Counted from the stretch's first letter, positions 10,988 through 49,297 are shown. The stretch is DNA of 64,000 bases from Terriglobia bacterium (GCA_009838515.1 VXRL01000080.1:89121-153120); one strand, 5' to 3'. The notes: generated by a model not told the origin, from the sequence alone. A program made the numbers and translations.

Positions 10988-12607
10988 CTAGGGTGCACCC
11001 GGTCTGCGACTGGTCGGCGCTGTCAGGGGTTCACCGGATTCCAAGGCTTGCTTGGCCTGTCTTGCAAAGATGCTGTCGGGGGTGTGTTCTAGGTATCGCT
11101 CCCAGGTTTGCGCCGCCAATCCCGGCTCATCGACGCTTGCGTAGATCTGTGCCAGTACCCGGTAACTTGACTCGACCAAGGGATCTGACTCGATTGCTCG
11201 CTCAAGGGCCTGGACGGCCCCGTTGAAGTTGCCGCTGGCATGTAGGCCGTCGGCTAGGCTCTGAAGCCAGATCGGGTTCCTCGGCTCCACTCTGACAACA
11301 TGTTCGAACAGTTCGGTCGCGAGTTCGGTTCTCCCGCGCAGCAGGAACATGCGGCCCAAGGCATGAGGAATGGCCACGTCGGTTTCTGGGAAGTCCCTCA
11401 TCGCCGGAACGAGATTCCGAAGCGCTGCCTCGCTTTCCTGCTGCGGAGAGTGGCTCCGTTCTGCCAAGCGAGCATAGGCCAGGCCGAGATTCCTCTGCGC
11501 CAGAGAGCCCTGCGGTTCGCGCCACGCCTTCAGTTTCCACAAGGTCTCACCACGCGAAGGTTCTTCTCGATTGCGAGCGATGCTGTGGTCGGTGAAGGCA
11601 CTATGGCCGCTGTCGTAGGCCCGCCGGGAAGGCATGTGGCAGCCGACGCAGTCTTGCAGGGGTTCGGGATGTCGTGCCAGGGCTGTCGGAGTGTGGCATC
11701 CTTGGCATTTCTGCCGGTAGTAGTCCGACCCGTCATCTGGCTTTCCATGTGGGTCGTGACAGGTGCCACACCATAGGGAATCTCCGCTGACCTGAGCGCA
11801 ACGACTCGCTGCGAGTTGCTCGACATGGCTGACTACTTTGAATTCCGGTACGCCCGAACTCGGGCTGGGTTGCTCGTAGAGATAGACCGAGAACACCTCT
11901 TCGAGTTCCATGCCGGGCCGGAAGTCCCCGAACGTTCGATTGGGGTTCAGTATGCGCGCCTCGCCGCTCAGGTGGCACTGCTCACAAATGCTGTCCCTTG
12001 CGCGGGCTGGGAGCTCGGAGGGGCTGAGGATCGTATCGGCTGACGGATTGGCAAGATGCTCTCGTGTCGCCCCGTGGCACCTGTCGCAGGAGATTGCTTC
12101 CGCGTCAAACGACGGATTCCCGTACTGGTTGAGCGTTCCTCGAATCGGCCGGGGCCGCCCAGCGTGGCACCACACGCACTCCGCTGTCACCGGGCGTTCG
12201 AATTCAGGGTGGGCGTTGTCTTCGTATCCCGGAGCGACATCCCATAGGCCGCGTCTCGTGTAGTAGGAAATAGGGGACTGGAACAGGTGCCTGCCGCGCG
12301 CTACCAAGTAACCGAAGGCATGGTTTCCCGATCCGATCACGAACTCGACTCGATTCTCTGAGTCCCAACCGTCTCGCTCCACCCGTTGAAGCATTCCTCT
12401 TGCTGTCGACTCGACAACGAACCGGGATCCGGAGAATTCGTGACTAAACGAGGCGTCCAGCCGGTGGTGTGAGCGGCTCAACGAGCGCCCCATGCCGGTT
12501 TCCAGGTACGCTTCAACCTGCTTGGCGTGACAAGCAGTGCATGGCGAATCGTCAGCGATGCCGGAACCACTCAGAACGGTCAGCATGGCGGCCAACGCGA
12601 ATACCAA
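10988..12607 (-). CDS. secreted heptaheme cytochrome c with C-terminal TPR repeats
   Basis: Seven CxxCH motifs read directly (CTACH, CVWCH, CDRCH, CEQCH, CGTCH, CQGCH, CVGCH) followed by TPR-like repeats. The ORF-track start (13183) is too far upstream; a signal-peptide-like LVFALAAMLTVLSGSGIADD begins near 12607 (exact start uncertain). Confidence 0.82.
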   Translation of the reverse strand: MVFALAAMLTVLSGSGIADDSPCTACHAKQVEAYLETGMGRSLSRSHHRLDASFSHEFSGSRFVVESTARGMLQRVERDGWDSENRVEFVIGSGNHAFGYLVARGRHLFQSPISYYTRRGLWDVAPGYEDNAHPEFERPVTAECVWCHAGRPRPIRGTLNQYGNPSFDAEAISCDRCHGATREHLANPSADTILSPSELPARARDSICEQCHLSGEARILNPNRTFGDFRPGMELEEVFSVYLYEQPSPSSGVPEFKVVSHVEQLAASRCAQVSGDSLWCGTCHDPHGKPDDGSDYYRQKCQGCHTPTALARHPEPLQDCVGCHMPSRRAYDSGHSAFTDHSIARNREEPSRGETLWKLKAWREPQGSLAQRNLGLAYARLAERSHSPQQESEAALRNLVPAMRDFPETDVAIPHALGRMFLLRGRTELATELFEHVVRVEPRNPIWLQSLADGLHASGNFNGAVQALERAIESDPLVESSYRVLAQIYASVDEPGLAAQTWERYLEHTPDSIFARQAKQALESGEPLTAPTSRRPGAP

Positions 12608-13043
12608 CGTGCGGATCCTGGTCTTGGCTAAGTCGTAAAATCCGTGCTGGGGCTTTAGACGGCTTCGCCTTGCCGAGGCGAGCCCGGTGGGATACACTCT
12701 TGACCGGCGCGTGCACGGGGCAGCGAATCGCCATCGAACGTCCGGTCCCGCCCAACAGTCCATGCGCTGACTCTCGTGGTCGGCGTACCGAGCGTTGTCG
12801 GTGAACGCGGACGCGGATAGCCAACGATGGTGCTGATGCATTATTTTCTCCCCGCCCAGCATGGTGTGGGAGACCAAGGGTAAGCCGGGAGACGTGAGCG
12901 ACGCGAGAGCCGCAACTTCGTTTCGGTGCGGGCTCAGGCCTCGTGGACCGTCTACCCTAGCGGCCATAACCCCACCTTTCGGTCTGTGGCTCGCGCAGGG
13001 TAGTTCAAAGCGTCCCGCCTCCTGATGGCCTGTAGCCACGTAT

Positions 13044-15998
13044 TCAAGGTCGACTCCCTGCATGGGCCAGCGCCTGATCATATAATTGCTGGATTCTCGG
13101 CGAGGGGACGGGTAGGATTTCCAGCGCCCGCACCAGGACGAGAATTGCGTCCTCCCATCGTCCTTGCAGGGCATAGACTTCACCTAGGCGGCCAAGTGCC
13201 ACAGCGTGTTCCGAATGCTGTTCCACCACCTGCACCAGATGCCCCTCCACCAGTTCCCAGCGACCGTCCTCGGCGTATAGGTCGGCCAGAAGCAGACGGG
13301 GACTTGGCTCATCCGGACGGAGCCTCACAGCCATCTCGAGCAGCGTTGCGGCCCGGTCCCGATCTCCCACGGCTGCATGCAGGCGGCCAATGCTCTCAGA
13401 TGCATGGAAGTCGATGAATGCGTCTTCCGGAGCAAGCGAGCGAGCTTCGCGGAACGCCTGAAAGCCGTCTTCGGCCTGGCCGTTACCGAGGGCGAACGTG
13501 CCACGGTACAAGTGCCGCATAGCGGTTTCGCGGCGTTCGATCCGCCGGATGCTGTCGTTGACATCGGCACCGAGGGATTCAACGTTGAGCAGGGGCACGA
13601 CGCTCGTCTTCAAGCGGGCCAGCTTCTGGATCGTCTCCCAGCCGTACCGCCTGTTGGTGTAGTCGTTGCGTGGAGCCGAGAACTCGATCCTCGGCCGGTC
13701 GTCGGTGTTCAACGGTGCACCGGCAACGAATTCCGCGAGTTCCCGCCCGCGCATCAGGAACGCGCAGAGCAGGCTGGTTTCATCGTTTCCGAAGACGAGC
13801 CCGTCGGAAACTGCCTGGTCCAGCAGGCGTTGGCGCAGGCGAGCGATTTCGAGCAAGGATGAGCCGTTCCTGCCGACCAAGCCGACCACCGGGTACATCA
13901 TGTCCGGATCCCCCAGCCAGAGTTCCGCCTCGGGGAACACTTCTAGGAACGTGGCGGCTATGGTTCGGAACTCCACCTCGGTCAGCTGGTAGAGCGGAAC
14001 CCACTGGACCACGACGCCTCGGTCGGCGAGCCGAGACTTGGCGACCTCGTAGTGCTCGAGGGAATACAGGCTTCCTGTGCCGGCGTCGGCCGGAAAGAAG
14101 ATGTCGGCCACGATCACGTCGAATCGCTCGCTGGTTGTCAGCAAGAAATTGCGTCCGTCCCCGACCACGAAACGCGTTCGCTCGTCCTTCAGGATGTCGT
14201 GGTTCTGCCCGGAGAAGTACGGTGCTGTTTCCGCAAGGCTCTCGACCAGGTCAACGATCCAGATCGTTTCGACGGGATGCCTGGCGACAGCTCCGGCAGT
14301 CATCCCTGCGCCCATCCCGATCGTCAATACCTTACGGGGGTCGGGGTGCAACAGCATCGGAATGTGCCCCAGCCCCTGGGACGAGCGCGCCCCGAGCCTG
14401 CCTGCCTGGACCTTGTTGTCGATCATCAGCAGCACGTTGTCCTCTGTCTGCTCGACTCGCACGTTGGCTACCAATCCGTCCTTGTAAAAGAGGAGTTTCC
14501 TCGCGTCGGCAGACGCGCCAATGCCAACGTAGAGGTCAGTCGCGTGCCCCGCTGCGAGACCGATGGCTGCCAGAGCCACTGTCGCGGCCATCACGGATCG
14601 CTTCGCCGCCCGGCCGGCACCAGGCTCCAGCGCCAGCAAGACCAGCGCCACCGCGATACTGACGGCTGACACGAGCATCATTCCGTACTTCACCCCGATC
14701 GTCGGGATGATCACGAATCCGGCCAGGAAGGAGCCGGCAATCGCGCCGATACAGTTCACCGCGTAGACGCCGCCAACCGTCCTGCCTAATCCTTCCATCC
14801 CGGTTACGCAGATTCGGCTCACAAGCGGAAACGTGCAGCCCAGCAGTAAGGTCGGGATTAGCATGACCGCAAAGCACAGCAGCAGTTGGAGGGCGATCAT
14901 GATTCCCCAATCGGCCTCCGCGGGTTGGATGATTCCCGAAGCCAAGTTGGGCATCACGCGAAAGAAGTGAATCAGTGCCAATGCGTAGAGGCCAACTGCA
15001 GCCTGGATGGTTCCGAACAAGAAGACCGGTCGCCGAGACCGCTGCCAGTACTTTCCGTAGAGGAAGCTCCCTATGCCAATTCCGCACAGGAACGCTGCCA
15101 GGATCAAGGTGAAGCTGTAGGTCGTCGAGTGCAAGGCGACGCCGAGGTTACGAGTCCAGAGGACTTCGTACCCGAGAGCTGCCGCACCGGAGATCCCGAA
15201 CGCGCCAAGAACCAACAGGACGAGTTTCGGCGAGTACACTTCAGCGGCCGAGCCTTGTTTCGATCCGGAACGCGCCGCGCGCTGCGAGCCCCGTCCAAGG
15301 GGCCGTTCACGGCTGTCGCGTGACGACTTGACGCGAAGCCGCGAACCTTTGGGCGTCCGGGTCTCCGCGACTGCCGGGGCAGCGGTGCGGTGCAGGACCA
15401 GTGCGAAGCAGCCAACGGCGAGGTTCAGCACGATCGCCAAGGTATGGGAGGCCGAGACACCCAAGGTCTCGATCAGCAGGAAACCTGTCACCACGCAACC
15501 CAGCGCGGCCCCGATAGTGTTCACCGCGTACAGGTAGCCCAGGCCCCTGCCGATACGGTCACGGGCCTCGACAATAGATCTGCCAAGGACCGGCAGCGAG
15601 GCGCCCATGAGCGTGGTTGGCAGCAGCATCACCAGGAGACTGGCGAGAAAGCGCGCGAGCGAAACACCCAGGAACGAGTCCGGCGCGAGGTGGCTGAGAT
15701 CGGCTGCGATGCCTTGGGCGTGCGGAATCAATGACGGCAGGAAGGCGGCGTATCCGCCGATCCCCAGTTCGAGCAGGCCATAGAGAAGTAGGGGCCTCCC
15801 GAACTGGTCGACGATCCTTCCGAACACCCAGCTGCCCAAGGCCAAGCCGGCAAAATAAGCAGCCAGCACCGTGCTGACCGCCAGGACGGTGGCACCGAAG
15901 ACCACGGTGAACATGCGAGCCCACAGCAGCTCGTACACTAGCCCGGTGAAGCCGGTAACCAGGAATAGGCCTAGCAGTACCGGCTGGAGACGACGCAT
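13044..15998 (-). CDS. fused MFS-type transporter/spermidine synthase-like protein with C-terminal TPR
   Basis: MRRLQPVLLGLFLVTGFTGLVYELLWARMFTVVFGATVLAVSTVLAAYFAGLALGSWVFGRIVDQ (N-terminal membrane domain), KVLTIGMGAGMTAGAVARHPVETIWIVDLVESL...FVVGDGRNFLL (spermidine synthase SAM fold), C-terminal TPRs. An alternative start exists at 16118. Confidence 0.9.
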   Translation of the reverse strand: MRRLQPVLLGLFLVTGFTGLVYELLWARMFTVVFGATVLAVSTVLAAYFAGLALGSWVFGRIVDQFGRPLLLYGLLELGIGGYAAFLPSLIPHAQGIAADLSHLAPDSFLGVSLARFLASLLVMLLPTTLMGASLPVLGRSIVEARDRIGRGLGYLYAVNTIGAALGCVVTGFLLIETLGVSASHTLAIVLNLAVGCFALVLHRTAAPAVAETRTPKGSRLRVKSSRDSRERPLGRGSQRAARSGSKQGSAAEVYSPKLVLLVLGAFGISGAAALGYEVLWTRNLGVALHSTTYSFTLILAAFLCGIGIGSFLYGKYWQRSRRPVFLFGTIQAAVGLYALALIHFFRVMPNLASGIIQPAEADWGIMIALQLLLCFAVMLIPTLLLGCTFPLVSRICVTGMEGLGRTVGGVYAVNCIGAIAGSFLAGFVIIPTIGVKYGMMLVSAVSIAVALVLLALEPGAGRAAKRSVMAATVALAAIGLAAGHATDLYVGIGASADARKLLFYKDGLVANVRVEQTEDNVLLMIDNKVQAGRLGARSSQGLGHIPMLLHPDPRKVLTIGMGAGMTAGAVARHPVETIWIVDLVESLAETAPYFSGQNHDILKDERTRFVVGDGRNFLLTTSERFDVIVADIFFPADAGTGSLYSLEHYEVAKSRLADRGVVVQWVPLYQLTEVEFRTIAATFLEVFPEAELWLGDPDMMYPVVGLVGRNGSSLLEIARLRQRLLDQAVSDGLVFGNDETSLLCAFLMRGRELAEFVAGAPLNTDDRPRIEFSAPRNDYTNRRYGWETIQKLARLKTSVVPLLNVESLGADVNDSIRRIERRETAMRHLYRGTFALGNGQAEDGFQAFREARSLAPEDAFIDFHASESIGRLHAAVGDRDRAATLLEMAVRLRPDEPSPRLLLADLYAEDGRWELVEGHLVQVVEQHSEHAVALGRLGEVYALQGRWEDAILVLVRALEILPVPSPRIQQLYDQALAHAGSRP

Positions 15999-16470
15999 GT
16001 CGCGCGTTGCTACGGTCCGTGCCGAAGCGGAACCGTCTAAGCGACACGTTACCGTACCAATTGTTGCGGTGTCCTGCAATGAAGGCTTCGCGGCTGCAGC
16101 CATTCTCATCTGAGCCATCGCCCGATATTTCGGCGTGTAGTACCAGCCACCCGCCGCTCCCCCGCAAACCGATACATTCCGTTACAGGACGTGGGCCGGA
16201 GCGGGAATTGACCTGTTGCTACGCCTGCCGGACCGGCGTCCCTGGGCGATCGGGGTCAAGCGCGAATCGGCACCCAAGCTGAGCAAGGGATTCCGAATTG
16301 CCGCAGCTGAGCCCTAATCCTCGGAGCAGTTCGTCGTCTACGCGGGAGAGGAAGAGTTCCCGGTCGACTGCCGCGGTACCCTTGCCGGAGCTGATGAATC
16401 GTCTCCTGGCGATGGCCTTCCGCACCTTGACGGGTTCTACGAGATAGCGCCAGCCAAGGCCATGTTTCGA

Positions 16471-18186
16471 TCACTCGGGAGTCCCCCGCTCCTCAAGGGT
16501 GACCCACTGATTCGCACGGACGCTTTCAAGTTCTTGGCGCCTGCCCCGCGCCCATTCGACTGTCACGCGCCCTGGGACATCGCAGTTGCCAATGCCAACA
16601 TGCACTCGCGGATCGCTTCTGGACGCGTAGCTGCCCCCGTTACGAACCGCAACGCCTTGCACCTTTCCGCAGAATTCGACCTCCACCAGCGAGCCTATTC
16701 CTTCCCGGTTTACGCGAGTTCCCTGCAGCCTTACGCCTAGCCAGGAGTTCGGAGCAGTGGAGCGATTCCTCAGCACCGCGGGAATTCCGTCGATTGGCAG
16801 CATGAGCAGATCGATCCTGCCGTCGTTGTCGAAGTCAACGCTTGCGGCTCCCCGGTAGGAACTGGGTTCTGTTTGCTCAACCGCACCTTCAGAGACGCCG
16901 AACCGGCCCTGTATGTTCTCCAGGATGCCGATGCGCTGGTGGTAGGAGGTTGTCGCCAACTCGCCTGCCGTAGGGTAGACGTGGCCATTGGCGACCCAGA
17001 GGTCGCCATCCCCGTCGTTGTCCAGGTCCGAGAACCCACATCCCCATCCGAGATACGGCACGGTGGCGTTCCGTAGCCCGACACGGAAAGACACGTCCTC
17101 GAAAAGCCCGGGCTCCTGCTGCTGGAAGAGCGGGAAGTGGTCCTCGGAAAAGGTCGTGGTGAGAAGATCCGGGTCGCCGTCTCCGTCGTAGTCGCCGACG
17201 CAGACTCCCATGTCAGCCTGGGTCTCGCCATCGGCGTTGTAGGCGAGCCCCGCGGCTAGCGCGTCGTTCAGGAAGCTGCTCCCTCCCTGGTTGACAAACA
17301 GGAAATTCGCCGACGAGTCGTTTGACACGAAGATGTCAGGCAGCCCGTCTCCATTGAAATCGCCGATCAAGGGCGTGAATCCGTAGCCCGGCGTTTCCGC
17401 CAGGACGCCGGACTCGTCCGTGATGTCGGAGAATGTTCCATCTCCGTTGTTTCGATACAAGACATCCACCCCAGGCTCGAGCTGCATTGGCCCGCAGAAC
17501 ACGTTCAGACCCCGGTAGTCGCACACTGGTGGCTCTCCCTCGACTGGAAGCGTGTCCAGCCTCAGGTAGGCGGCCACGTAGAGATCGAGGTCGCCATCTG
17601 CGTCGATGTCGCCGAAGCTGCTCCCGGTGTGCCACGCGTGGCTATCAAGCAAGCCAGACGCCACACCGGTCTCAGTGAAGCTGCCGTCTCCATCGTTCCG
17701 AAACAGCAGGTCCCTTCCGATTGTCGTGATCAGGACGTCCACGTCGCCGTCATTGTCATAGTCTGCGGCGTTGGCACCGGTGCTCCAGTATTGGCAGGCT
17801 AGCCCTGACTCCTCAGTGACGTCTTCGAATTCGCGGCCCTCGAGATTTCGGTACAAATACACGCGGCGGGCGGACCGGGAGGGTGTGCGTCCGGCAACGA
17901 TCTCGCGAAGGTCGCTCATCGTCGCTCCGCTCACGATAAGGATGTCCATCCAGCCGTCGTTGTCGTAGTCGAGAACCGCCGTGCCACTCCCATTGGCTTC
18001 TGCGATCCAGTTCTTCTGGGGCCCGCCGTGAGCGACCTGGGGAGTCAGCCCGACCTCCCCAGCGACATTGACGAACCGCAGGGGGGCGCCCGCAGCTCCT
18101 GAATGAGCATGAGGCGCGCCCAATGCAAGCAGGGCCAGAGAGGTCAGGGCGGCACATTTTTCGGCCAGCGAGGACGATATCCTCAC
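16471..18186 (-). CDS. CRTAC1 family protein (FG-GAP/VCBS repeats, ASPIC/UnbV domain)
   Basis: Repeated DYDNDGWMDILI/DYDNDGDVDVLI/DIDADGDLDLYVA motifs; C-terminal NSWLGVRLQGTRVNREGIGSLVEVEFCGKVQGVAVRNGGSYASRSDPRVHVGIG (ASPIC/UnbV). GTG start; 4-nt overlap with the upstream gene. Confidence 0.9.
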   Translation of the reverse strand: MRISSSLAEKCAALTSLALLALGAPHAHSGAAGAPLRFVNVAGEVGLTPQVAHGGPQKNWIAEANGSGTAVLDYDNDGWMDILIVSGATMSDLREIVAGRTPSRSARRVYLYRNLEGREFEDVTEESGLACQYWSTGANAADYDNDGDVDVLITTIGRDLLFRNDGDGSFTETGVASGLLDSHAWHTGSSFGDIDADGDLDLYVAAYLRLDTLPVEGEPPVCDYRGLNVFCGPMQLEPGVDVLYRNNGDGTFSDITDESGVLAETPGYGFTPLIGDFNGDGLPDIFVSNDSSANFLFVNQGGSSFLNDALAAGLAYNADGETQADMGVCVGDYDGDGDPDLLTTTFSEDHFPLFQQQEPGLFEDVSFRVGLRNATVPYLGWGCGFSDLDNDGDGDLWVANGHVYPTAGELATTSYHQRIGILENIQGRFGVSEGAVEQTEPSSYRGAASVDFDNDGRIDLLMLPIDGIPAVLRNRSTAPNSWLGVRLQGTRVNREGIGSLVEVEFCGKVQGVAVRNGGSYASRSDPRVHVGIGNCDVPGRVTVEWARGRRQELESVRANQWVTLEERGTPE

Positions 18187-37416: not shown

Positions 37417-38013
37417 ATGCCCGGCCTACCTCGCCAGATTGAAGACTACGCGGCGACTTTGCCCGAGGGTGCACCCTTGTGCCCAAGCGCATTGTTGCAT
37501 CTAGGCACTCGCGCGGCGGTCGATCAGGCGTTGTCCCGGCTTGCTCGCCGCGGGCGGCTCATGCGTATCTGCCAGGGCGTCTACATGCGACCGATTAAGA
37601 CACGATTTGGCGAATGCTCGCCTGCAATCGAGAGAGTGATCCCATCGCTATCGAAGTTGTGGGGCGAGGTCATCGTCCCTTGCGGTGGCGGCTCTGCCAA
37701 TGTCCTCGGCCTGACGAACCAGGTGCCGGTACGGTTGGTCTTCCTGACCTCTGGACCTGATCGCAATCTCTGGATTGACGGCCAGCCGGTGGTTTTGCGA
37801 CATGCTCCACGCTGGCAGCTGGTCGCTCCGAATCGGCTTGCTGGCAATATCGTCCGGGCTCTCGCTTGGCTGGGGCCCCAAGAGGTGAATGACGGATTGG
37901 ATCGACTAGCTCCCCGGATTTCGGCTGAGGATCTTGCGGAACTCGCTAGCGTCCGTGCCGTACTGCCAGCCTGGCTCGCAGAGCCGATCAGCCGGTTGGT
38001 GGCCCATGCATAA
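37417..38013 (+). CDS. type IV TA antitoxin, AbiEi/DUF6088 family
   Basis: MPGLPRQIEDYAATLPEGAPLCPSALLHLGTRAAVDQALSRLARRGRLMRICQGVYMRPIKTRFG; wHTH-type AbiEi/DUF6088 pattern, next to an AbiEii-type nucleotidyltransferase with an 8-nt overlap. Confidence 0.85.
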   Translation: MPGLPRQIEDYAATLPEGAPLCPSALLHLGTRAAVDQALSRLARRGRLMRICQGVYMRPIKTRFGECSPAIERVIPSLSKLWGEVIVPCGGGSANVLGLTNQVPVRLVFLTSGPDRNLWIDGQPVVLRHAPRWQLVAPNRLAGNIVRALAWLGPQEVNDGLDRLAPRISAEDLAELASVRAVLPAWLAEPISRLVAHA

Positions 38014-39031
38014 GGCCTGGTTTCCATCCCTGTCGTCCAACGACCGTCAATATGCACTCAGGGTCGCTGCGCCCCGGTGCGGGCGCAGGCCATATTTGCT
38101 CGAAAAGGACATCTGGGTAGTCCAGGCCTTGAGCGTTCTGTTCTCGGCCCCATTTGCCAACGATCTGGTGTTTCAGGGAGGTACGTCGCTCTCGAAGGCC
38201 TACGACATAATCCGGCGCCTTTCGGAGGACATTGACATCACATACGATATTCGGGCCTTCGCCCCTGACTTCGCAGCCGACAGCGAGGAGCCACTACCGC
38301 CCACGCGCAGTCAGGAGAAACGCTGGACGCGGGCGATCCGAGCTCGGCTGGCGGAGTGGACAAAGGAATATGCGTTGCCCGCAGTCCAAGAGGGATTGGC
38401 AAGGAGTCGTTGCGCTGCCGACGTGCGTGCAGACGCTGACCGGATCTACATCGGCTACACACCTCTCTTTGATGGCTATGGATTCGTCAAACCGGAAGTA
38501 AAGCTCGAATTCGGCGCGCGTTCGACCGGCGAGCCGCGGAAGCGGCGTCCCGTCGTCTGCGATGCGTCATTACACCTGCCCGACCTTGCGTTTCCTGCCG
38601 CGTCCCCATCGGTCATGCTGGCCGAGCGCACCTTCTGGGAAAAGGCTACCGCCATGCACGTATTCTGTAAGCGGGAGCGCGGTCGCGGCGACCGGCTTTC
38701 TAGGCACTGGCACGACTTGGTTCGATTGGCCGATGGCGGTTACGCCGCGACCGCGTTGGCCGACCGCAAGCTCGCACGCACCGTCGCACGGAACAAATCC
38801 GTCTTCTTCCGAGAGAAGGACGCGGCGGGCGGTTGGATCGACTATCGAGCGGCGGTGACGGGTGGTTTGCAACTCGTTCCGACCGGCACGGCGCGTGGCG
38901 TGCTTGCCGACGACTATGGCAGGATGCTCCGTGACGGTATGCTCCTCGGCGATGGGGAGACGTTCGAAGACATCATGGGCCGCTGTGCCGATATAGACCT
39001 GAGAGCCAATAGCTACGAGGGCAATGCATAG
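38006..39031 (+). CDS. AbiEii-type nucleotidyltransferase toxin
   Basis: LLEKDIWVVQALSVLFSAPFANDLVFQGGTSLSKAYDIIRRLSEDIDITYD: GG-S and D-x-D motifs of the AbiEii/MNT-like fold. Confidence 0.9.
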   Translation: MHKAWFPSLSSNDRQYALRVAAPRCGRRPYLLEKDIWVVQALSVLFSAPFANDLVFQGGTSLSKAYDIIRRLSEDIDITYDIRAFAPDFAADSEEPLPPTRSQEKRWTRAIRARLAEWTKEYALPAVQEGLARSRCAADVRADADRIYIGYTPLFDGYGFVKPEVKLEFGARSTGEPRKRRPVVCDASLHLPDLAFPAASPSVMLAERTFWEKATAMHVFCKRERGRGDRLSRHWHDLVRLADGGYAATALADRKLARTVARNKSVFFREKDAAGGWIDYRAAVTGGLQLVPTGTARGVLADDYGRMLRDGMLLGDGETFEDIMGRCADIDLRANSYEGNA

Positions 39032-39289: not shown

Positions 39290-40852
39290 TCAGCAACAGA
39301 TCATGCTCAGCAGTGCGCGCGCCCTACTCATTCCGACATAGTGGTAAGCCCGCAGACTCTCGCTACGTCCGGGTCTAGGCATATCAACAAGAACAATTAC
39401 CTCGCTCTCAAGGCCTTTGAAATCTCCAATCTGAGCAAAACCGATTGCATTACGATTCGAGTTTCGGGGAGAGAAATGATCCAGAACTGCGATCGAATCG
39501 CGAAATTTCGCGGACAGAGAAGACGTCCAAGAATGCGCAAACACATGGGGCGAAAGTATGACTATGTCTCTCGGGTTGAATCCCTCTCGATCAACTAGCC
39601 TACGCAGCTCTCTCTCTAGAGCTTGGATCGCAGTGTCTGAGTCGGCGACATTGACTTCACGTACAGCCGGGCCATCACCAACCCCTGAATTCCCAATATC
39701 GGCGTCAAGATCACCTTGTATCCGTTGCAGGATCGGCAGAGAGTTCCGGCAATTCGTCTTGAGTGGGATGCGAACCGGGTTAAAACTCTCCAAATAATCA
39801 TAAGCGTCGGGCACATAAGAGCCGCACAAGCCGGATTGATTGTTGGCGTCATGAAAAAAGCACCAACGTCCTTCGCCTATTCCACCCTGTAGATAGTTAT
39901 CCAGCTGGGCCAAGGCATCCATGTTCAATATGTCCTGGCCTTCATCGACGATCAGTGCATCGAATTTCTCGATGCCGACACGCTTGGCTGCGACATGAAT
40001 CGACTCCGCCAAACTGACGGTCAACCCGGGCGCCACGCTACGCTCTAAGAATCCCTTGAGCCACGGCGAATGACAGGTCAGTGCGGTCTTCATTCCAGAT
40101 GCGCCCCAGCGCTTCGCCAATTCAAGCGCTAACATAGTCTTCCCCGTACCAGCACCGCCCGAGCATATCACCCGAGGGTTGGCTTCGACGACATCGATGA
40201 GCCGAAGCTGATCCGCTGTCAGCCGTGCGATGCGCGTTTCGACATTATGGGCAGAAATGTGCAACGGTACCACAGCCTCAAAATCAGGGCGCAAATGCTG
40301 CTGCAAAGCTTTCAGATGCGAAGGGATTGCGGTAGGTTTTCGAGAGTCCTTCACGCGCCAGTGACTGAAAAATATCTCCAGCCACTTCTCGAATTGTCTA
40401 AAGTCCGATCCATCTGCGAGAGTGGCACGGTCCCACTCCGCACTATCAGGAAGCCGATCGACATCTGGCATAACAACTCCGTAGCCCACCACGAACAGAT
40501 TGGCAAGAGAAGCGGGCAACTTTTCCAGTAGACCATGTAGTGCTCCCTCAGCTTGCCTGAATGGAGACTCACGCAAACGCTTGGTTTCACCGTACCGATT
40601 TGTAGTTACCCAGATGCCATCATTGCAGGATACTCCGCCACCCTTCACCTCTAGTACAAAGAGACCATGTGGTCCGCAAACAACAAAGTCGATCTCTCCG
40701 AATCGTTTATATTCATGCCGCGGAAGGTTGAGCGAGTGCATCGAAAACCAAGTAGTTTGGTCTGGGCGGGAAAAGGTTGCACGCAGCTGGTCGAACGTAC
40801 GCAATTCCGCTTGGCTGCTGGTGTTCAATGCTTGGTTAGGAATCATTCGCAT
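39290..40852 (-). CDS. NERD domain-containing SF1 (UvrD-like) helicase, gene 5 of the DISARM-like operon
   Basis: NERD: RFGEIDFVVCGPHGLFVLEVKGGGVSCNDGIW; Walker A CSGGAGTGKTMLALELA; Walker B ALIVDEGQDI; motif VI HYVGMSRARALLSM. Confidence 0.87.
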   Translation of the reverse strand: MRMIPNQALNTSSQAELRTFDQLRATFSRPDQTTWFSMHSLNLPRHEYKRFGEIDFVVCGPHGLFVLEVKGGGVSCNDGIWVTTNRYGETKRLRESPFRQAEGALHGLLEKLPASLANLFVVGYGVVMPDVDRLPDSAEWDRATLADGSDFRQFEKWLEIFFSHWRVKDSRKPTAIPSHLKALQQHLRPDFEAVVPLHISAHNVETRIARLTADQLRLIDVVEANPRVICSGGAGTGKTMLALELAKRWGASGMKTALTCHSPWLKGFLERSVAPGLTVSLAESIHVAAKRVGIEKFDALIVDEGQDILNMDALAQLDNYLQGGIGEGRWCFFHDANNQSGLCGSYVPDAYDYLESFNPVRIPLKTNCRNSLPILQRIQGDLDADIGNSGVGDGPAVREVNVADSDTAIQALERELRRLVDREGFNPRDIVILSPHVFAHSWTSSLSAKFRDSIAVLDHFSPRNSNRNAIGFAQIGDFKGLESEVIVLVDMPRPGRSESLRAYHYVGMSRARALLSMICC

Positions 40853-42471
40853 GGTTTGCTGTTCTCATTGCCCGGTTCCTCGATTCCCTCTGCGTTCATT
40901 AAGTTCGTACGGATCTCGGCCTCGATCTGAGGATCAATCAGCGGCCAACGCCCCAAGCGGCGCAGAAATTTGTCCATATCAACTTCTTCAGTAACAGCCT
41001 TTAACATACCGGGCAATACAACCTCCAGGGCGTTTCGTTCGAAACTATGCGGATAATTACCTTCCACCAGAGTGATTCGGGTTTGGATGCAATCGTTCCA
41101 CTTGCACTTCCGCGCAAGCTCCAGTGCCAAGCGCCGTCGTTGGCTGTTCCACTCACGGCCGGAGGACGTAAAGAATCCTCGTAATGGTTTCGGACCGGGA
41201 GGTATATTCACAGAAATGCTATCGCAGTGATTCAAGTGCTCTGCATTTGCCATCCAATAAGCTACGTAGGCAGACACGTCCGGATGACGTAGTTCTTTTG
41301 GAATCTGTAGCCAGCCATCGCGCACACCGAAGAGAATGCCAGCAAGTATGTGCTCAGAATCGTTCAGTAACGGATGTGAAAACTCCAGCAGATCCGTACA
41401 AGTGTCACGTAGGCAGAACAATAGCAGTGGTCTCGACAGAGATCCCTTGTGATGTTGGAGTAGCTCGGTGATTGTTCCACTTCCCAAGCCAAGACAACCG
41501 CGCATATCCACGATCAATCGCTCCAAGCGTGGCCCGATTTCCGATTTTCTTAGAAGCTTGCTCTGACCTTCCAAGTAACCAATTGCGACATCCAATGGTG
41601 TTTGCGGACGTTCCTGAAATTGCGCGGAGGAGAGCGATTGTATTACCCCCAGAAAAATCCGTGTACGCGTATCTGCTTGGGTAGATATCTCACCGCTTTT
41701 CATCCAGTTGGAGATCTCGAAAAGAATGGGATCGCTTTGAGATAGGTCATCATTTCCGTCAGGCGTTCCTTCAGTAACTGACCGGAAAACGGCGAGCCCA
41801 AGATCACTTCGATTCGCGAAGTGGTACAGCATCGCGAGCGCACCACCAAGCGCCTGTCCAAGAGCAGGGAATTCATTATGCCTATCCTCAAAAAGTTGCT
41901 CTTCCGGTTGCCTTAACGGCAACCCGACGTGCGTATCAGTGTCAAATAATGACTCCGAGACTACAAGCTGACGAGACTTTAGATCCACATTTGAAACATC
42001 GTGTGCGGCGCGCTCGAATGCTTGCATGTCGGCGGAAGAACGAAAGTTAATTCTGAGTAGCAACGTCGTCGGCAATGGCGCTCGAATCAGTATGGCAACA
42101 TCGTCCCGCCGTTTTCTTGTAGCTGGTGAGGCCACGTCCCGCGTAACGCCGTTTCGCGAGAGCATGCGAACGGGACCGGACAGGTCGCTCAAATCGAATG
42201 ACGCGATGCAGGGCAACAAGTGCTTACGCTCAACGGTTGCATGATTCACTGCGTCATCTGGAATCATCTCCTTGGCCCGGAACAACGGAATCCACCCTGG
42301 ATAAAGTTCCAAAGAATCGGAATAGTACTTACCGCGAAAACCAGCGGGGCTCATCACCATATCGGCAGCCAGCATATAGAGCATGTTGGGATGGTTGGTT
42401 ACCAGGTGCCATATGCGGGCGGTTCGCCGCCGACGTGTCGGTTTCTTCAGAGAGCCGCTTAGCGTGGTCAT
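40843..42471 (-). CDS. uncharacterised 542-aa protein, gene 4 of the DISARM-like operon
   Basis: Intact ORF, ATG 42471, 3 bp after the stop of gene 3 and overlapping the start of gene 5. No motif recognised (NMLYMLAADMVMSPAGFRGKYYSDSLELYPGWIPLFRAKEMIPD...). Confidence 0.85.
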   Translation of the reverse strand: MTTLSGSLKKPTRRRRTARIWHLVTNHPNMLYMLAADMVMSPAGFRGKYYSDSLELYPGWIPLFRAKEMIPDDAVNHATVERKHLLPCIASFDLSDLSGPVRMLSRNGVTRDVASPATRKRRDDVAILIRAPLPTTLLLRINFRSSADMQAFERAAHDVSNVDLKSRQLVVSESLFDTDTHVGLPLRQPEEQLFEDRHNEFPALGQALGGALAMLYHFANRSDLGLAVFRSVTEGTPDGNDDLSQSDPILFEISNWMKSGEISTQADTRTRIFLGVIQSLSSAQFQERPQTPLDVAIGYLEGQSKLLRKSEIGPRLERLIVDMRGCLGLGSGTITELLQHHKGSLSRPLLLFCLRDTCTDLLEFSHPLLNDSEHILAGILFGVRDGWLQIPKELRHPDVSAYVAYWMANAEHLNHCDSISVNIPPGPKPLRGFFTSSGREWNSQRRRLALELARKCKWNDCIQTRITLVEGNYPHSFERNALEVVLPGMLKAVTEEVDMDKFLRRLGRWPLIDPQIEAEIRTNLMNAEGIEEPGNENSKPCE

Positions 42472-43661: not shown

Positions 43662-45485
43662 TTAGGACATACCAAAGAAGGAAGGCATTCCGTTGGCGGC
43701 ATCGCCTTTGACGAAAACTCGGTCCAGCAAGGTGTTTCCGTATTCGCAGGCAGGCTCGGGTACCAGCGCGCAGGCATGGCAGGCGGCGCGGTTCAGCACG
43801 CTCGGACCCTGACCCTCATGCTCGCTGCAGACTGGATCCAGCGAACACCAGCGTGAATGCTCTAGTGCACGAGTCAGAATGCCTAGAGAGCGTCGGGGTT
43901 CGCTTAGCTCGGCCAGCCCACCCAAAGAGCCGGCAACGTCGGGAACAGCTACATGAATGAGAATTCCGGCCATGGGTTCGGGTAAGTTGGCACAATAGAT
44001 GCGTTCAATCAGCGACGCACCAGGATATCCTCCCTCAGACTCGATTTGTCGCATCAGCAGATGTGACAGCGTATGCAGTAACAGGAAGCGTGCTGTCAGT
44101 GGGATAGGGGAGTCGCGACCAGATTGTGCGAATCGGGGAAGAAGTCGATTAAGTCGCGAAGTGACTGCGGTTTCTTGCTCCCAGTCCTGGAGTCGCTCTT
44201 CGTCGAGTACGACAAATATGCCTTCGCCATACAATTCGGTGGCGGGCAACCAGTCAGATTGTCCGACGATGTCTGGCGGCACTACCTCTTTGCCGCCCAT
44301 GCGGGTGAATCCCTTAAATGCTTTCACCGCCTTAAGCCGGTCGACGCGAACGAGGTGCCGGATGCCTTGGACTATTTTCCTAGCGTGACTGTCCGATACA
44401 TCTGCGTTTCCCAGTTCACGCCACCCGGCGCTGTTATTGCGTGTGACCAAGTCCTCGTCATCGCGCTGGTCTTGCCGTACCTCCAGAAACGCCTCGAACT
44501 CGCTTTCGCGTAATTGGCCAGGCGTAAGGTTCTTACCGTACAAGGGATAGCCGCGGTTGAGCTCAGCCAAAGCGGTCTTGATATCGTCGTATGAGCAACG
44601 ATACTCCGTCGCCAGCGCATTTATCATGCCTTTTCTCGCCAATGGCGTTTTCGCCCCGTCGATTCGGGCGCGATGATCTGAATTGCGATACAGGTTATCA
44701 ACGACTGTCCCCTTTCTCACGCGGGATTCAGGTGGAACTACCAGCACGGATTCATCGATTGGCACGTAAGCCCGAGTGTCGTTGATAGCCAGCACTTGCG
44801 CGAGATCATTGCCTTCTTTCTCAACGGCCTCTCTCGGCGGTACTAGATCGTGTTCGGTCCAGGGTTGCATTCGGCCTTGACCGAAGCTCAATCGCTCATC
44901 GCCACGAAACCTGACCTCAGCGTGGCAGGCATCGCACTGTAACGTGCGTTCTTCGTAGCCGCGTTCGATCAATCGAAGTTGGTCTCTGACCTCACAGTTG
45001 GCCTGCGCAGGATTGCGTGTGTCCCTGTGCGCGAGAAAGTGCCACGGCACATCGGCAAGGAATCCACCGGGATCCGCAAGTATCCAGTTCACCTGCTCAA
45101 GAATCGGGTGGGATTCGCATTCCTTTCGAATACAAGGAGGGGAATAGTCAAGTCGATCCCGTTTCCACGGCCATCGGTACAGTGCACCGCAACTGGGGCA
45201 CCGAGCCCACGACGGAAATCGCGTTGTCGGTACACAAACACCATCCACTTGGCCATTCTTCAGTTGCGTCGCCACAGGTGGGCCACGCAGTTGCTGGTCG
45301 ATTCCCAACGCGGAGCGCACACGCTCTACGTACGGAATCACTTTGCCAGCCACGATACCCCGGCGATCCGTCCATTGACGAGTGTCCTGAACGACCACCA
45401 GCCCATTCGGCCACCGAACAATCGCCCCTACACTGCTTTGACCGAGTAGGTGGGAGAGGCGTATAGGAATCAGTCCATCGGACAC
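43662..45485 (-). CDS. drmB: DUF1998-type protein, DrmB-like
   Basis: N-terminus LLGQSSVGAIVRWPNGLVVVQD; CPSC/CDAC zinc-type motifs; C-terminus RFLLLHTLSHLLMRQIESEGGYPGASLIERIYC...NRAACHACALVPEPACEYGNTLLDRVFV, typical of DrmB/DUF1998. Confidence 0.88.
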   Translation of the reverse strand: MSDGLIPIRLSHLLGQSSVGAIVRWPNGLVVVQDTRQWTDRRGIVAGKVIPYVERVRSALGIDQQLRGPPVATQLKNGQVDGVCVPTTRFPSWARCPSCGALYRWPWKRDRLDYSPPCIRKECESHPILEQVNWILADPGGFLADVPWHFLAHRDTRNPAQANCEVRDQLRLIERGYEERTLQCDACHAEVRFRGDERLSFGQGRMQPWTEHDLVPPREAVEKEGNDLAQVLAINDTRAYVPIDESVLVVPPESRVRKGTVVDNLYRNSDHRARIDGAKTPLARKGMINALATEYRCSYDDIKTALAELNRGYPLYGKNLTPGQLRESEFEAFLEVRQDQRDDEDLVTRNNSAGWRELGNADVSDSHARKIVQGIRHLVRVDRLKAVKAFKGFTRMGGKEVVPPDIVGQSDWLPATELYGEGIFVVLDEERLQDWEQETAVTSRLNRLLPRFAQSGRDSPIPLTARFLLLHTLSHLLMRQIESEGGYPGASLIERIYCANLPEPMAGILIHVAVPDVAGSLGGLAELSEPRRSLGILTRALEHSRWCSLDPVCSEHEGQGPSVLNRAACHACALVPEPACEYGNTLLDRVFVKGDAANGMPSFFGMS

Positions 45486-45488
45486 GGT

Positions 45489-48400
45489 TCATAGCACCTT
45501 AAGCAGGGCAGTGTCCTCCACGTTGCGTAGCGACTGCAAGGTCGCCCACAGGCCGCGAATTTTGTCGTCGTGGTTGTATAGCAGGCGGTCGCGGCCGGTG
45601 TTCTGATTTGGAACCTGATACTCCAGCTTTCTTCTACCATTACAACGTTTGACCTCAGACTGCCAGTCTATCATGAGAGATGTGATATGCCGCTGTACTT
45701 CATCGGCCTGATCGGGTGCGGCCTGTGCGCAACGCCGTCCAAGACGTTCCGCGGCCTCGGCGACGCTTAGATTCTTTGGATCAAAGTCGGCAGCGGTATC
45801 ATTCCCGAGCAGCCCCAGCCTAGCATGACGCATCACGATCACCAGCGCCGCGTGCAGAGCACGATTGCGTGCCTGGTAGGTATAAGGCGTAATGCTGGTG
45901 GGCTCGACAAAGCGGTAGAAGGCCTCATGATAGGGGCGAAAACTCTCGTAATGTGACAGACTGCGCGCCTGATCGCGATAGTAGTTGGCGAACACTAGAC
46001 CGGCCACTTCGCCCCGACCCACTCGACTACTGGCCTGGATGTATTCCGCCGCGGTTAACGGCTGGCCATTGATGATCATCAGTGCAAGCCGGGCCACGTC
46101 AAGCCCGACCGAGATCATGTTGGTAGCCAGTACTGCATCGAGGCAGCCGACCTTATCGCGCTCCTTTTTCAATCGGCCGAATATTTCTGCATTCTGCTCG
46201 GCCGTCTGCGAACTGGTGAGCTGGGCAATGCTTGGCGTCGAGCGTCGTTGATTCGGCGTTCTCTCGTTTTCCTGAGATCGGGCACGCGCGACGCCGGGCA
46301 ACAACTGCATGTATTCGCGCACATCGCTGGCAAATGCCGCATGGCTGTTTGCGACGCCTTTCAGGCTTCCGTGATACACCACCTGCGTCCACCAGGCATC
46401 CAAGAGTTCTCGTGAGTCCCGTTCACCCTCGAACAAGGTAAATGGGGCCAGCAGCAGTGCTGCCGCCAAAGGGGCCATACACTGCTGACGGTTTAGCATC
46501 GGTGCCAGATAGCCGACGTAGATGCGACCCGGGCGTTGCTCCAACGGTACGGTACGAGAGAAATAGGCGTCGTCGCAGCTCAGCCCGGGTGGTGGGAACA
46601 CGGCCACTTCTCGGCCATATAGTCGTTTCACCTGTTGATCCGCCATGCGGATGGTGGCGGTCGAGGCGATGTACTTCGGGTACACGCCGCGCAGCTGCAG
46701 GACGGTGTCGATGGCGGCCTCATATAGGCCGGCCAGCGAGCCCAGGGTGCTGGAGATCAGGTGCAACTCATCTTGGATGATAAGTTCCGGCGGTCGATGT
46801 AGCTCACCGCCAAAGAACGCGTTGGCGCGCTCTTCCCAAGTGAGTCTGGCGAATTTGTCCACCGTGGCGACCAGCATGGTCGGTGCTTCGGCATACAACG
46901 CTTCGTCAACGACATTACAGGGAAGCATGCCATCTGCGGACACGCCGAAGGTACAGTTTGGGTTACGGCAGAGGAAGTGGAAGTGCTTCGCGGTGCTCTC
47001 GTAGTTGCGAGTCGAGTCAAACTCTTGCTCACACCACGGGCAACCAAATAGGACCAGCGCAGGCTTTTCACCGGTAGTGCGCGCCTTGTCTACAAGCTCG
47101 GCGGCTTTCTGGAAGCTGTTTGGGCTGATGGCCTCTCCTACCCACATGCCGATAGTGACCGGGGCCGAGCCGAGATCCGCTCGTTCACGCCGAATCAGTT
47201 CTAGTGCACAGATGAGACGGGTGGCGCGTATGAACTGATCGCGGGTCAACAGGCGAAGGGTGTAACGCATCAGGACAGCAGTTCCGCCTCCAGTATCGGG
47301 ATGACGAAGGCGCCGCAGCGCAATCTGGAATGCTACTAAGCCGAGGTAAGCCTCCGTCTTACCCCCACCCGTTGGGAACCATATCAGGTCGACCGTATCG
47401 CGGAATTCGCTGTCCTCGTTCGCCGTAGATTCCAGAGTGGTCAACAGGAAGGCCAACTGAAACGGGCGCCAGCGATAGGCATCGTCCGCACGGGACTTGC
47501 CCTGTAAACGATCGTGCTGGCGCATCTGGTCCAGCATGGCTCGATTGGCCAGAGCGAATGCCAGTCTTGCCTGTGAATTCACGTCCAGCAGGCGCAGGCT
47601 GGCTCGCATGCGCTGGACAGCCATATTCATTCGGGCGACCAAGCGGTTCCCCACCACATGATCATCAAGCTGCAGGACCGAGATTTGCCCCTGCTGCCTT
47701 GTGACCCATTCGGCGTATTCATCGACGAACGCAGCCAGCGCGGGCAGGAGGGTTGGGTACATGTCGTGGATTTCCGCCAATCGCGCCAGCGACAACACAG
47801 GTTCACCACCCGATCCGGTGTCTGCCGTCATCTGCGGAACCTCCACCAGTGGCATCGTCTCGGAGCGCAGCTCAACTACCTTGCCGCCCTTCAATTCCCA
47901 GTTGGCAGCACAGCCATGCCCGACTGCGTAGATACGCCGATCCTTATACTGGAGTTCGATTTCCTGCTCTTCAGGGTCGAGCAGACTACGATCAACACGT
48001 GGATAGACGCCAATTTCCCCGGAATCGATCACGCAGCGCAGGCTGGCCTCGAACAGGGTCTTTTTCGCGCGCTCGAAGACATAGTCTCTACCCGTCTCTT
48101 TGTCGCTCAGGTCCTGTGTATTGCATAGAGAAACCGTGACGATCCACCCACCGAAGAAATGACGCCACTGAACATCCACGCGCGCCTTTCCTTCTAGCTT
48201 GAGAAAGCTCTGGCGCTGGTCGTCTCCGGGACAACTGATGTTCTCAAACTCCTCGTCATGTCCTTGTGCTGATACTAGGCTGTGGCGGTTCCATTCGTTC
48301 TTATACCGTCCTCGTTCGTCACGTTCTGCAGGCTCATATCCCACGGCACGGCACAATACCTCAAACCGAAGATCATTGCCTTCGATGAAAAACGAGAAGC

Positions 48401-48671
48401 CCAACGATGACGGCGGGATGTATCGCCGCACGATGGCAGGTTCAGTAATGCTTTCACCCGCGACTTCGCCCGCACCTTCACTCTCATCCACGTCTTCGCC
48501 AGTGGGATCAAGGCCTTCACCCCACCGGGATGTAGGGTAGAGCGCACCGCAGGGGAACCGTTCTGTAGGCAGGACGCCACGGAGGTGTGGGCCATCATCC
48601 ACTGGCTCAGGTGGCCCGATGAGTTGCTTGCGCACCCAGTCGATCAGATTCCTACGCGGTTCAGTGAACAT
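45489..48671 (-). CDS. drmA: DISARM-type helicase, DrmA-like
   Basis: RRNLIDWVRKQLIGPPEP...LPTERFPCGALYP N-terminus; Walker A VDLIWFPTGGGKTEAYLGLVAFQIALRRL; LIIQDELHLISSTLGSLAGLYEAAID; ATNMISVGLDVARLALMIINGQPLTAAEYIQASSRVGRG. Confidence 0.9.
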   Translation of the reverse strand: MFTEPRRNLIDWVRKQLIGPPEPVDDGPHLRGVLPTERFPCGALYPTSRWGEGLDPTGEDVDESEGAGEVAGESITEPAIVRRYIPPSSLGFSFFIEGNDLRFEVLCRAVGYEPAERDERGRYKNEWNRHSLVSAQGHDEEFENISCPGDDQRQSFLKLEGKARVDVQWRHFFGGWIVTVSLCNTQDLSDKETGRDYVFERAKKTLFEASLRCVIDSGEIGVYPRVDRSLLDPEEQEIELQYKDRRIYAVGHGCAANWELKGGKVVELRSETMPLVEVPQMTADTGSGGEPVLSLARLAEIHDMYPTLLPALAAFVDEYAEWVTRQQGQISVLQLDDHVVGNRLVARMNMAVQRMRASLRLLDVNSQARLAFALANRAMLDQMRQHDRLQGKSRADDAYRWRPFQLAFLLTTLESTANEDSEFRDTVDLIWFPTGGGKTEAYLGLVAFQIALRRLRHPDTGGGTAVLMRYTLRLLTRDQFIRATRLICALELIRRERADLGSAPVTIGMWVGEAISPNSFQKAAELVDKARTTGEKPALVLFGCPWCEQEFDSTRNYESTAKHFHFLCRNPNCTFGVSADGMLPCNVVDEALYAEAPTMLVATVDKFARLTWEERANAFFGGELHRPPELIIQDELHLISSTLGSLAGLYEAAIDTVLQLRGVYPKYIASTATIRMADQQVKRLYGREVAVFPPPGLSCDDAYFSRTVPLEQRPGRIYVGYLAPMLNRQQCMAPLAAALLLAPFTLFEGERDSRELLDAWWTQVVYHGSLKGVANSHAAFASDVREYMQLLPGVARARSQENERTPNQRRSTPSIAQLTSSQTAEQNAEIFGRLKKERDKVGCLDAVLATNMISVGLDVARLALMIINGQPLTAAEYIQASSRVGRGEVAGLVFANYYRDQARSLSHYESFRPYHEAFYRFVEPTSITPYTYQARNRALHAALVIVMRHARLGLLGNDTAADFDPKNLSVAEAAERLGRRCAQAAPDQADEVQRHITSLMIDWQSEVKRCNGRRKLEYQVPNQNTGRDRLLYNHDDKIRGLWATLQSLRNVEDTALLKVL

Positions 48672-48709
48672 TCGCAACTGCCCAGGTAATCCTCAAGCGC
48701 AAGCACTGA

Positions 48710-49297
48710 TCAATGGGATGGCCGGGATTCCACTCTCGCCAGCAGGGCCGGCGGCCCTTGCAGCAAGAACTCAATACGGTTCAGACCCTGCTTCGGCGCA
48801 GTCAATAGTACGCTGCGCAGCGTGGCGAAATCTCGTGCCCCGTGCTTGGAGCGGCACCCACCCGAGATCTTCATGCCCAGATTAATCATGCGCAGATACC
48901 GTTCCGCCTGATCGTTGGTGAAGTGCACCCTGTTATCCCACGGAATGCGTAGCACCGATTCCCGCCTCTCCCTCAGCCTCAACGCCAGATTGTGACTTGG
49001 TCGGCGCATTTTGCGACCCCGTCGTCCGCTCGGCAAGGCGGTCAGCGCTTGGTAACGGGTCTGCGCTTCCCGCACCAATTGGTCGAAGCGCCGCTCGAGC
49101 CTCTCCAGCAGCGAGCGCGGCAGTGCCGTGCCCTGCTCCCACACGATCCACCCTGCCCGGTTCGCCCGCCTGAGCAGCTGTTGCATTCGCCGCGCCCAAG
49201 CTTGCCCGTCGATCTCCGCCAAGACCTCTGCATCGAGCAAATGATGGGCACTACACATCGCGTGCGAGACTCCCCCGACCTTTAAGTGGGACGCCAA
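48710..49297 (-). pseudogene. IS66 family transposase, 5'-truncated (C-terminal part only)
   Basis: SHAMCSAHHLLDAEVLAEIDGQAWARRMQQLLRRAN...RIPWDNRVHFTNDQAERYLRMINLGMKISGGCRSKHGARDFATLRSVLLTAPKQGLNRIEFL: the IS66 Tnp C-terminal DDE region; in-frame stop upstream of 49297 and no N-terminal two-thirds. Confidence 0.85.

Follow-up and report, generated by a model that had tools for sequence, protein, structure and literature searches.

Background

Among described defence systems, DISARM is one of the closest to the locus reported here. Its DrmAB binds 5' single-stranded DNA overhangs and is activated by them, and the operon is typically completed by DrmC and methyltransferases (PMC9142583). A survey of YprA-family systems speaks of 'many uncharacterized DISARM-like' classes within the DISARM clade, and treats NERD as a subtype of PD-(D/E)xK nuclease (PMC12458937). 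A second line of comparison is DarT (PF14487), the toxin of DarTG, which binds ssDNA and NAD+, and whose catalytic Glu is E152 in DarT1 and E160 in DarT2 (PMC11543638). Our literature search found no paper linking DarT, or the ADP-ribosylhydrolase family ARH/DraG (PF03747), to DISARM as a component, and we found no mention of a DarT/ARH-like protein in main-text passages of the YprA-family survey (PMC12458937).

Results and Discussion

A DISARM-like operon of five genes

The window, namely the whole stretch of 64,000 nucleotides from a Terriglobia bacterium analysed here, carries five co-oriented genes, of which the fourth is the target of this study. In operon order, preceded by a transposase fragment, the features are as follows.

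48710-49297, minus strand: IS66-family transposase fragment, just upstream of DrmA
45489..48677, minus strand: DrmA-like SF2 (YprA-family) helicase, 1062 aa, TTG start as listed
43662..45485, minus strand: DrmB-like protein with MZB/DUF1998 zinc domain, 607 aa
42475..43659, minus strand: SF1 UvrD-like ATPase (P0003), 394 aa, Pfam UvrD_C_2 and UvrD-helicase
40843-42471, minus strand: target ORF (P0001), predicted DarT-fold/ARH-like fusion, 542 aa, intact
39290..40852, minus strand: NERD (PD-(D/E)xK) nuclease domain fused to an SF1 helicase, 520 aa, Pfam NERD 43.8 bits
40643..40696, minus strand: NERD active-site motif ExD...ExK, residues 53-70 of the preceding protein

The first four genes are separated by gaps of 2-3 nt. 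The SF1 stop lies 3 nt before the ATG of the target ORF, the 3' end of which overlaps the ATG of the downstream NERD-helicase by 10 nt, so that translational coupling on both sides is plausible. An earlier note on this DNA had described an intact ORF of 542 aa, coupled on both sides and embedded in a DISARM-like operon; all of this holds, with the minus strand now added, the coupling being as plausible as the spacing makes it and the SF1 and then drmAB neighbours being kept in homologous loci.

The DrmA-like protein scores under both curated DISARM cut-offs, though DrmA is its best match (NCBIfam DrmAS, E 4e-245, 816 bits under a cut-off of 950; PADLOC DrmA, E 6e-202), while the DrmB-like protein reaches 314.8 bits with NCBIfam DrmB_fam, vs a cut-off of 240, and also matches Pfam MZB. 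The SF1 ATPase has both Walker motifs, A as GGPGTGKS and B as VIDEGQD. In the last gene, the NERD motif E53-x-D55...E68-x-K70 is invariant in 28 of 28 homologues, and the NERD-helicase is likely the nuclease effector of the operon. Its similarity to PADLOC RTasNERD-Hel (E 6.6e-43) runs along the entire protein, indicating an effector type shared between systems; RTasNERD-Hel itself is the helicase of a reverse-transcriptase defence system.

On the whole, the operon shares with DISARM a DrmA-like helicase and a separate DrmB/DUF1998 gene, adjacent and co-oriented, but has the SF1 ATPase, the predicted fusion and the NERD-helicase instead of the remaining DISARM genes. The DrmC PLD nuclease is found neither in the operon nor as a conserved neighbour (a PLD-like domain occurs in 2 of 71 neighbouring ORFs), and DNA methyltransferases (DrmMI/DrmMII) are found neither in the operon nor in the flanking window genes scanned nor in the most frequent neighbour families. 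Since DrmC and the methyltransferases were looked for and not found, we do not class the operon as DISARM. ARMADA and TALON are likewise YprA-family helicase systems, and TALON also has a NERD nuclease, but the BrxHII and PglX homologues of the former and the TPR-CSD and TBP genes of the latter, as given in the survey, are absent from our operon (PMC12458937). Plausibly it is one of the uncharacterised DISARM-like classes mentioned in the survey, which may already list it (PMC12458937).

Predicted folds of the target protein

The target ORF has no significant model in Pfam, NCBIfam, PADLOC or PHROGs, and no PDB sequence match even with a 39-sequence profile. The earlier note saw no catalytic motif in it and proposed a Foldseek search on a predicted structure, which goes further and points to a DarT-fold domain fused to an ARH-like domain. 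The predicted parts are as follows.

41926..42426, minus strand: DarT-like ADP-ribosyltransferase-fold domain, residues 16-182 (Foldseek, hhalign)
42094..42096, minus strand: codon of A126, aligned with the DarT catalytic Glu (hhalign, column counts)
41107..41874, minus strand: all-helical ARH-like domain, residues 200-455 (Foldseek to ARH3/DraG/PARG, hhalign)
40891..41106, minus strand: small C-terminal alpha/beta tail, residues 456-527 (AF2 secondary structure)

Two AF2 models were searched, one made from P0001 with 39 homologues (pLDDT 84.5, pTM 0.86), the other from a homologue 33% identical with 25 sequences excluding the close relatives of the window copy (pLDDT 87.7). For the first, the first eight Foldseek matches in the PDB are all DarT (best E 4e-5, prob 1.00), followed by the related Tpt1 and then by ARH3 (prob 0.54), DraG, ARH1 and one PARG. 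The second also gives DarT first (E 1.6e-4, prob 1.00) and PARG 5zqy with prob 0.92. Nothing in the viral structure library matches at E <= 0.001, and the C-terminal tail shows no match to ARH extensions. A Tpt1-like phosphotransferase was considered on account of its fold matches (prob 0.97-0.99) and rejected, as the Arg-His-Arg-Arg set that is conserved in Tpt1 is not seen.

Profile comparison with DarT and ARH alignments built from fetched genomes agrees with the models. With hhalign, residues 16-182 score 32.4 against DarT (column shuffles 12.5 +/- 2.1, reversed 10.1) and residues 183-470 score 28.8 against ARH (shuffles 13.2 +/- 2.2, reversed 18.2), with 0 of 200 shuffles as high in either case, while the crossed pairings score 14.8 and 14.4, within their nulls. 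For the ARH-like domain the full-length TM-scores are low and the HMM probability is 5%, yet the score lies far above the shuffles. On the two models together with these scores, a DarT-type fold is well supported as the prediction for residues ~16-182, and an ARH-like fold moderately supported for residues ~200-455.

The likeness to DarT extends to the T and N of [IV]T(H/N)..N at the first strand and helix, although identity in the structural alignment is ~10-14% and the Pfam and PADLOC DarT models do not match. The likeness to ARH/DraG is a weak structural and profile match, including AGxLxGxxxGxxxxP after the DTDT region, and PF03747 does not match the target ORF.

Catalytic residues

In the profile alignments, the DarT segment A-E-[FV]-L-V, which holds the catalytic Glu, falls on V125-A126-I127-L128-I129. 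By this sequence-profile equivalence, the Glu position is A in 17, V in 9, L in 8, G in 4 and I in 1 of the 39 homologues, and never acidic. Two positions before, residue 124 is D or E in 28 of the 39 and A, G, V, I or T in the other 11; this acid may be the catalytic residue, shifted by two positions. Where DarT has its Arg-bearing NAD loop, the target protein has a shorter one in which K48, Y50 and D52 are conserved, and no counterpart of the conserved DarT Arg was found. Invariant in the DarT-like domain are T25, N26, N29, M33, F45, D52, P58, G59, P132, L133, P134 and N161. In addition, the target protein differs from DarT in being fused to a helical domain, with no macrodomain or NADAR antitoxin.

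The second domain is similar in this respect. GDALG (with its Asp), DDT, TH and DTDT are invariant or nearly so in our ARH reference alignment (A6), but homologues of the helical domain show no such conserved columns; close to where DTDT would fall there is only a pair of acidic residues, D/E371 and D/E373. By alignment, both the transferase Glu and the metal motifs are lost. The simplest reading of these columns would be that both domains are pseudo-enzymes and that the DarT side keeps a conserved pocket.

The best-conserved stretch of the target ORF is residues 20-70, with 47-80% identity to homologues whose overall identity is 30-67%, and the N-terminal segment that the earlier note took for a conserved domain falls within it. 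The same note had found only HHKGSLSR, lacking the Asp, in a scan for the PLD nuclease motif HxKxxxxD. This segment (residues 340-347) is no PLD remnant, since its Lys is not conserved (K in 11, D in 7 and E in 4 of the 39 homologues), and a PLD nuclease was rejected.

Conservation of the operon

Searches of whole genomes and contigs yield 48 homologues of the target ORF besides the window copy, with hosts in Acidobacteriota, Alpha- and Gammaproteobacteria, Desulfobacterota/Deltaproteobacteria, Planctomycetota-labelled MAGs and others. A single-sequence search of the genome contigs found none, and a 9-sequence profile was needed there; searches of phage, viral-contig and plasmid collections gave no homologue.

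The SF1 ATPase lies directly upstream of the homologue in each of the 45 contig loci where an ORF is called, and DrmB and DrmA precede the SF1 gene wherever the contig is long enough; this conserved position is far beyond chance. Reciprocally, the SF1 subfamily (E <= 1e-40) matches exactly 7 of 396 Acidobacteriota genomes, and all seven carry the target ORF; an eighth genome with the target ORF has it at a contig edge. The target ORF is thus an obligate member of the DISARM-like operon. The check suggested earlier, whether homologues always adjoin drmAB or an SF1 helicase, finds them always beside drmAB and the SF1 ATPase; the family belongs to no housekeeping family that we could detect, and its homologues do lie in defence contexts.

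The NERD-helicase is less constant. Among the 40 loci with room for it, it follows the target ORF in 25 and precedes DrmA in 3, and it is undetected in 12, so that it is not always the partner nuclease. In one locus where none is detected (L005, genome G008), DrmA (12127-17760, 1877 aa) carries a fused N-terminal extension that contains a NERD-like DEID...EVK motif and protein-kinase-like sequence; by eye it resembles PglW or MAD6. Other neighbours differ from locus to locus, among them Type I, III and IV restriction genes, AbiE, Fic and Gabija-like helicases; neither a methyltransferase nor a PLD nuclease recurs. Some copies are apparently decaying: extra ORFs interrupt DrmB and the target homologue in L060 (7.8-12.6 kb), DrmA/DrmB are split in L017 and L048, and the target homologue is split in L036.

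Evolutionary rate and transfer

Within the operon the target ORF evolves fastest, its identity being lower than that of DrmA in 99%, DrmB in 99.6%, SF1 in 98% and the NERD-helicase in 84% of 276 locus pairs. In locus L032 (9986-11623) the target homologue shares 45% identity with the window copy, against 75-80% for the four operon partners, which suggests allele replacement or very fast evolution; the overall pattern fits a recognition role or allele exchange.

The window operon is nearest to gammaproteobacterial and desulfobacterial copies (ORF 63-68%, DrmA 75-79%), while G006 and G008, genomes of the same genus, carry a divergent version (ORF 32-35%, DrmA 49%). Together with a G+C content of 55% vs 62-64% in the flanks, and the IS66 fragment, both of which mark the operon as a recent arrival, this indicates horizontal acquisition. 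Directly downstream, and convergent with the operon, lies a complete AbiEi/AbiEii-type pair (37417-38013 and 37934-39031, plus strand).

Unfused helicase-DarT-ARH operons

A helicase, DarT (PF14487) and ARH (PF03747) are also encoded, in that order, in the Acidobacteriota genome G084, a Salmonella plasmid and the Streptomyces plasmid pST1, and on the chromosomes of 21 of 5,426 complete E. coli genomes, e.g. AR_0128. Such operons are located as follows.

L118:2585-6343
L119:2547-6318
L110:1067-4874
L121:9001-12759

Two variants occur: a Cereibacter plasmid in which an IS insertion precedes DarT, and SNF2-DarT-ARH in G086. These operons have the same gene order as SF1 followed by the predicted DarT-ARH fusion, but differ from it in being unfused, in keeping the catalytic motifs of both DarT and ARH intact, and in having no DrmA/DrmB alongside. 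P0003 was rejected as an ortholog of their SF1, being no closer to it than SF1s in general; common descent of the whole module is therefore only a hypothesis. PADLOC models detect the helicase and, weakly, the DarT of these operons, with none for ARH. Present in several phyla, the unfused operon appears to be a DarT-type defence or toxin-antitoxin module not yet described.

Proposed role of the target protein

The best reading of the target ORF would be a non-catalytic DNA- or nucleotide-recognition subunit that connects DrmAB with the SF1 motor and with the NERD nuclease. We lean towards the view that this obligate subunit of a DISARM-like, presumably anti-phage, system descends from a DarT-ARH pair which became fused, no longer carries out transferase or hydrolase chemistry, and recognises a strand or ligand. 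A mechanism may be drawn from the overhang binding of DrmAB, the ssDNA and NAD+ binding of DarT, and the NERD nuclease with its invariant motif. DrmAB would load on invading DNA with an exposed 5' single-stranded overhang, as in DISARM, and unwind it; the degenerate DarT-fold domain would read the exposed strand or a nucleotide ligand via the pocket T25-N26-H27-N29 / K48-Y50-D52; the target protein would then join DrmAB with the SF1 ATPase, the product of the preceding gene, and cleavage of the DNA would fall to the NERD-helicase. Of the roles named earlier, sensor, adaptor or effector, the first two may stand. With the catalytic Glu lost, an effector that actively ADP-ribosylates is disfavoured, and the NERD-helicase makes the better candidate for that part.

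The strict pairing with SF1 in both directions and the loss of both catalytic sites would also be expected of a structural scaffold or stability factor for SF1, in which the ART and ARH folds are recycled as protein-protein interaction domains without any recognition. We consider this unlikely, since being the fastest-evolving gene of the operon better suits a part that faces the phage or substrate, and the invariant polar residues kept in residues 20-70 go beyond a mere surface patch.

It is quite improbable that the DarT-fold domain still has ADP-ribosyltransferase activity in a divergent form, marking exposed phage ssDNA or a protein by means of another acid (such as D/E124), with the helical domain as regulator. 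DarT does act on ssDNA in phage defence (PMC11543638), the cleft-side TNHxN with K48/Y50/D52/E81 is very strongly conserved, and position 124 is acidic in most homologues; against this, the Glu position is non-acidic in 39 of 39 and position 124 in 11 of 39, no counterpart of the NAD-loop Arg was found, and the operon has no fixed, separate antitoxin with intact catalytic residues. It is very unlikely that the DarT/ARH pair senses NAD+ depletion, ADP-ribose or ADP-ribosylated DNA, reading ADP-ribosylation products and switching the helicase-nuclease on: both ancestral domains recognise ligands of the NAD+/ADP-ribose type, and the N-terminal cleft-side residues are kept without the catalytic Glu, but the TH/DTDT pocket residues of ARH are mostly gone.

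Returning to the recognition subunit, we tentatively raise a bolder version of it, in which a DISARM-like system domesticated a DarT-ARH toxin-antitoxin pair as its ligand sensor, the dead fusion reading ssDNA, NAD+ or ADP-ribosylated phage DNA and licensing the helicase-nuclease. If true, this would tie the DrmAB branch of defence to warfare by DNA ADP-ribosylation.

Conclusions

The operon is a recurring DISARM-like system without a methyltransferase of its own, and its formerly unexplained subunit gains a testable identity. The question is thereby raised how a DISARM-like system of this kind spares the host DNA. Beyond this, the finding suggests a possible route by which a toxin-antitoxin pair may become the recognition module of a nucleic-acid defence complex.
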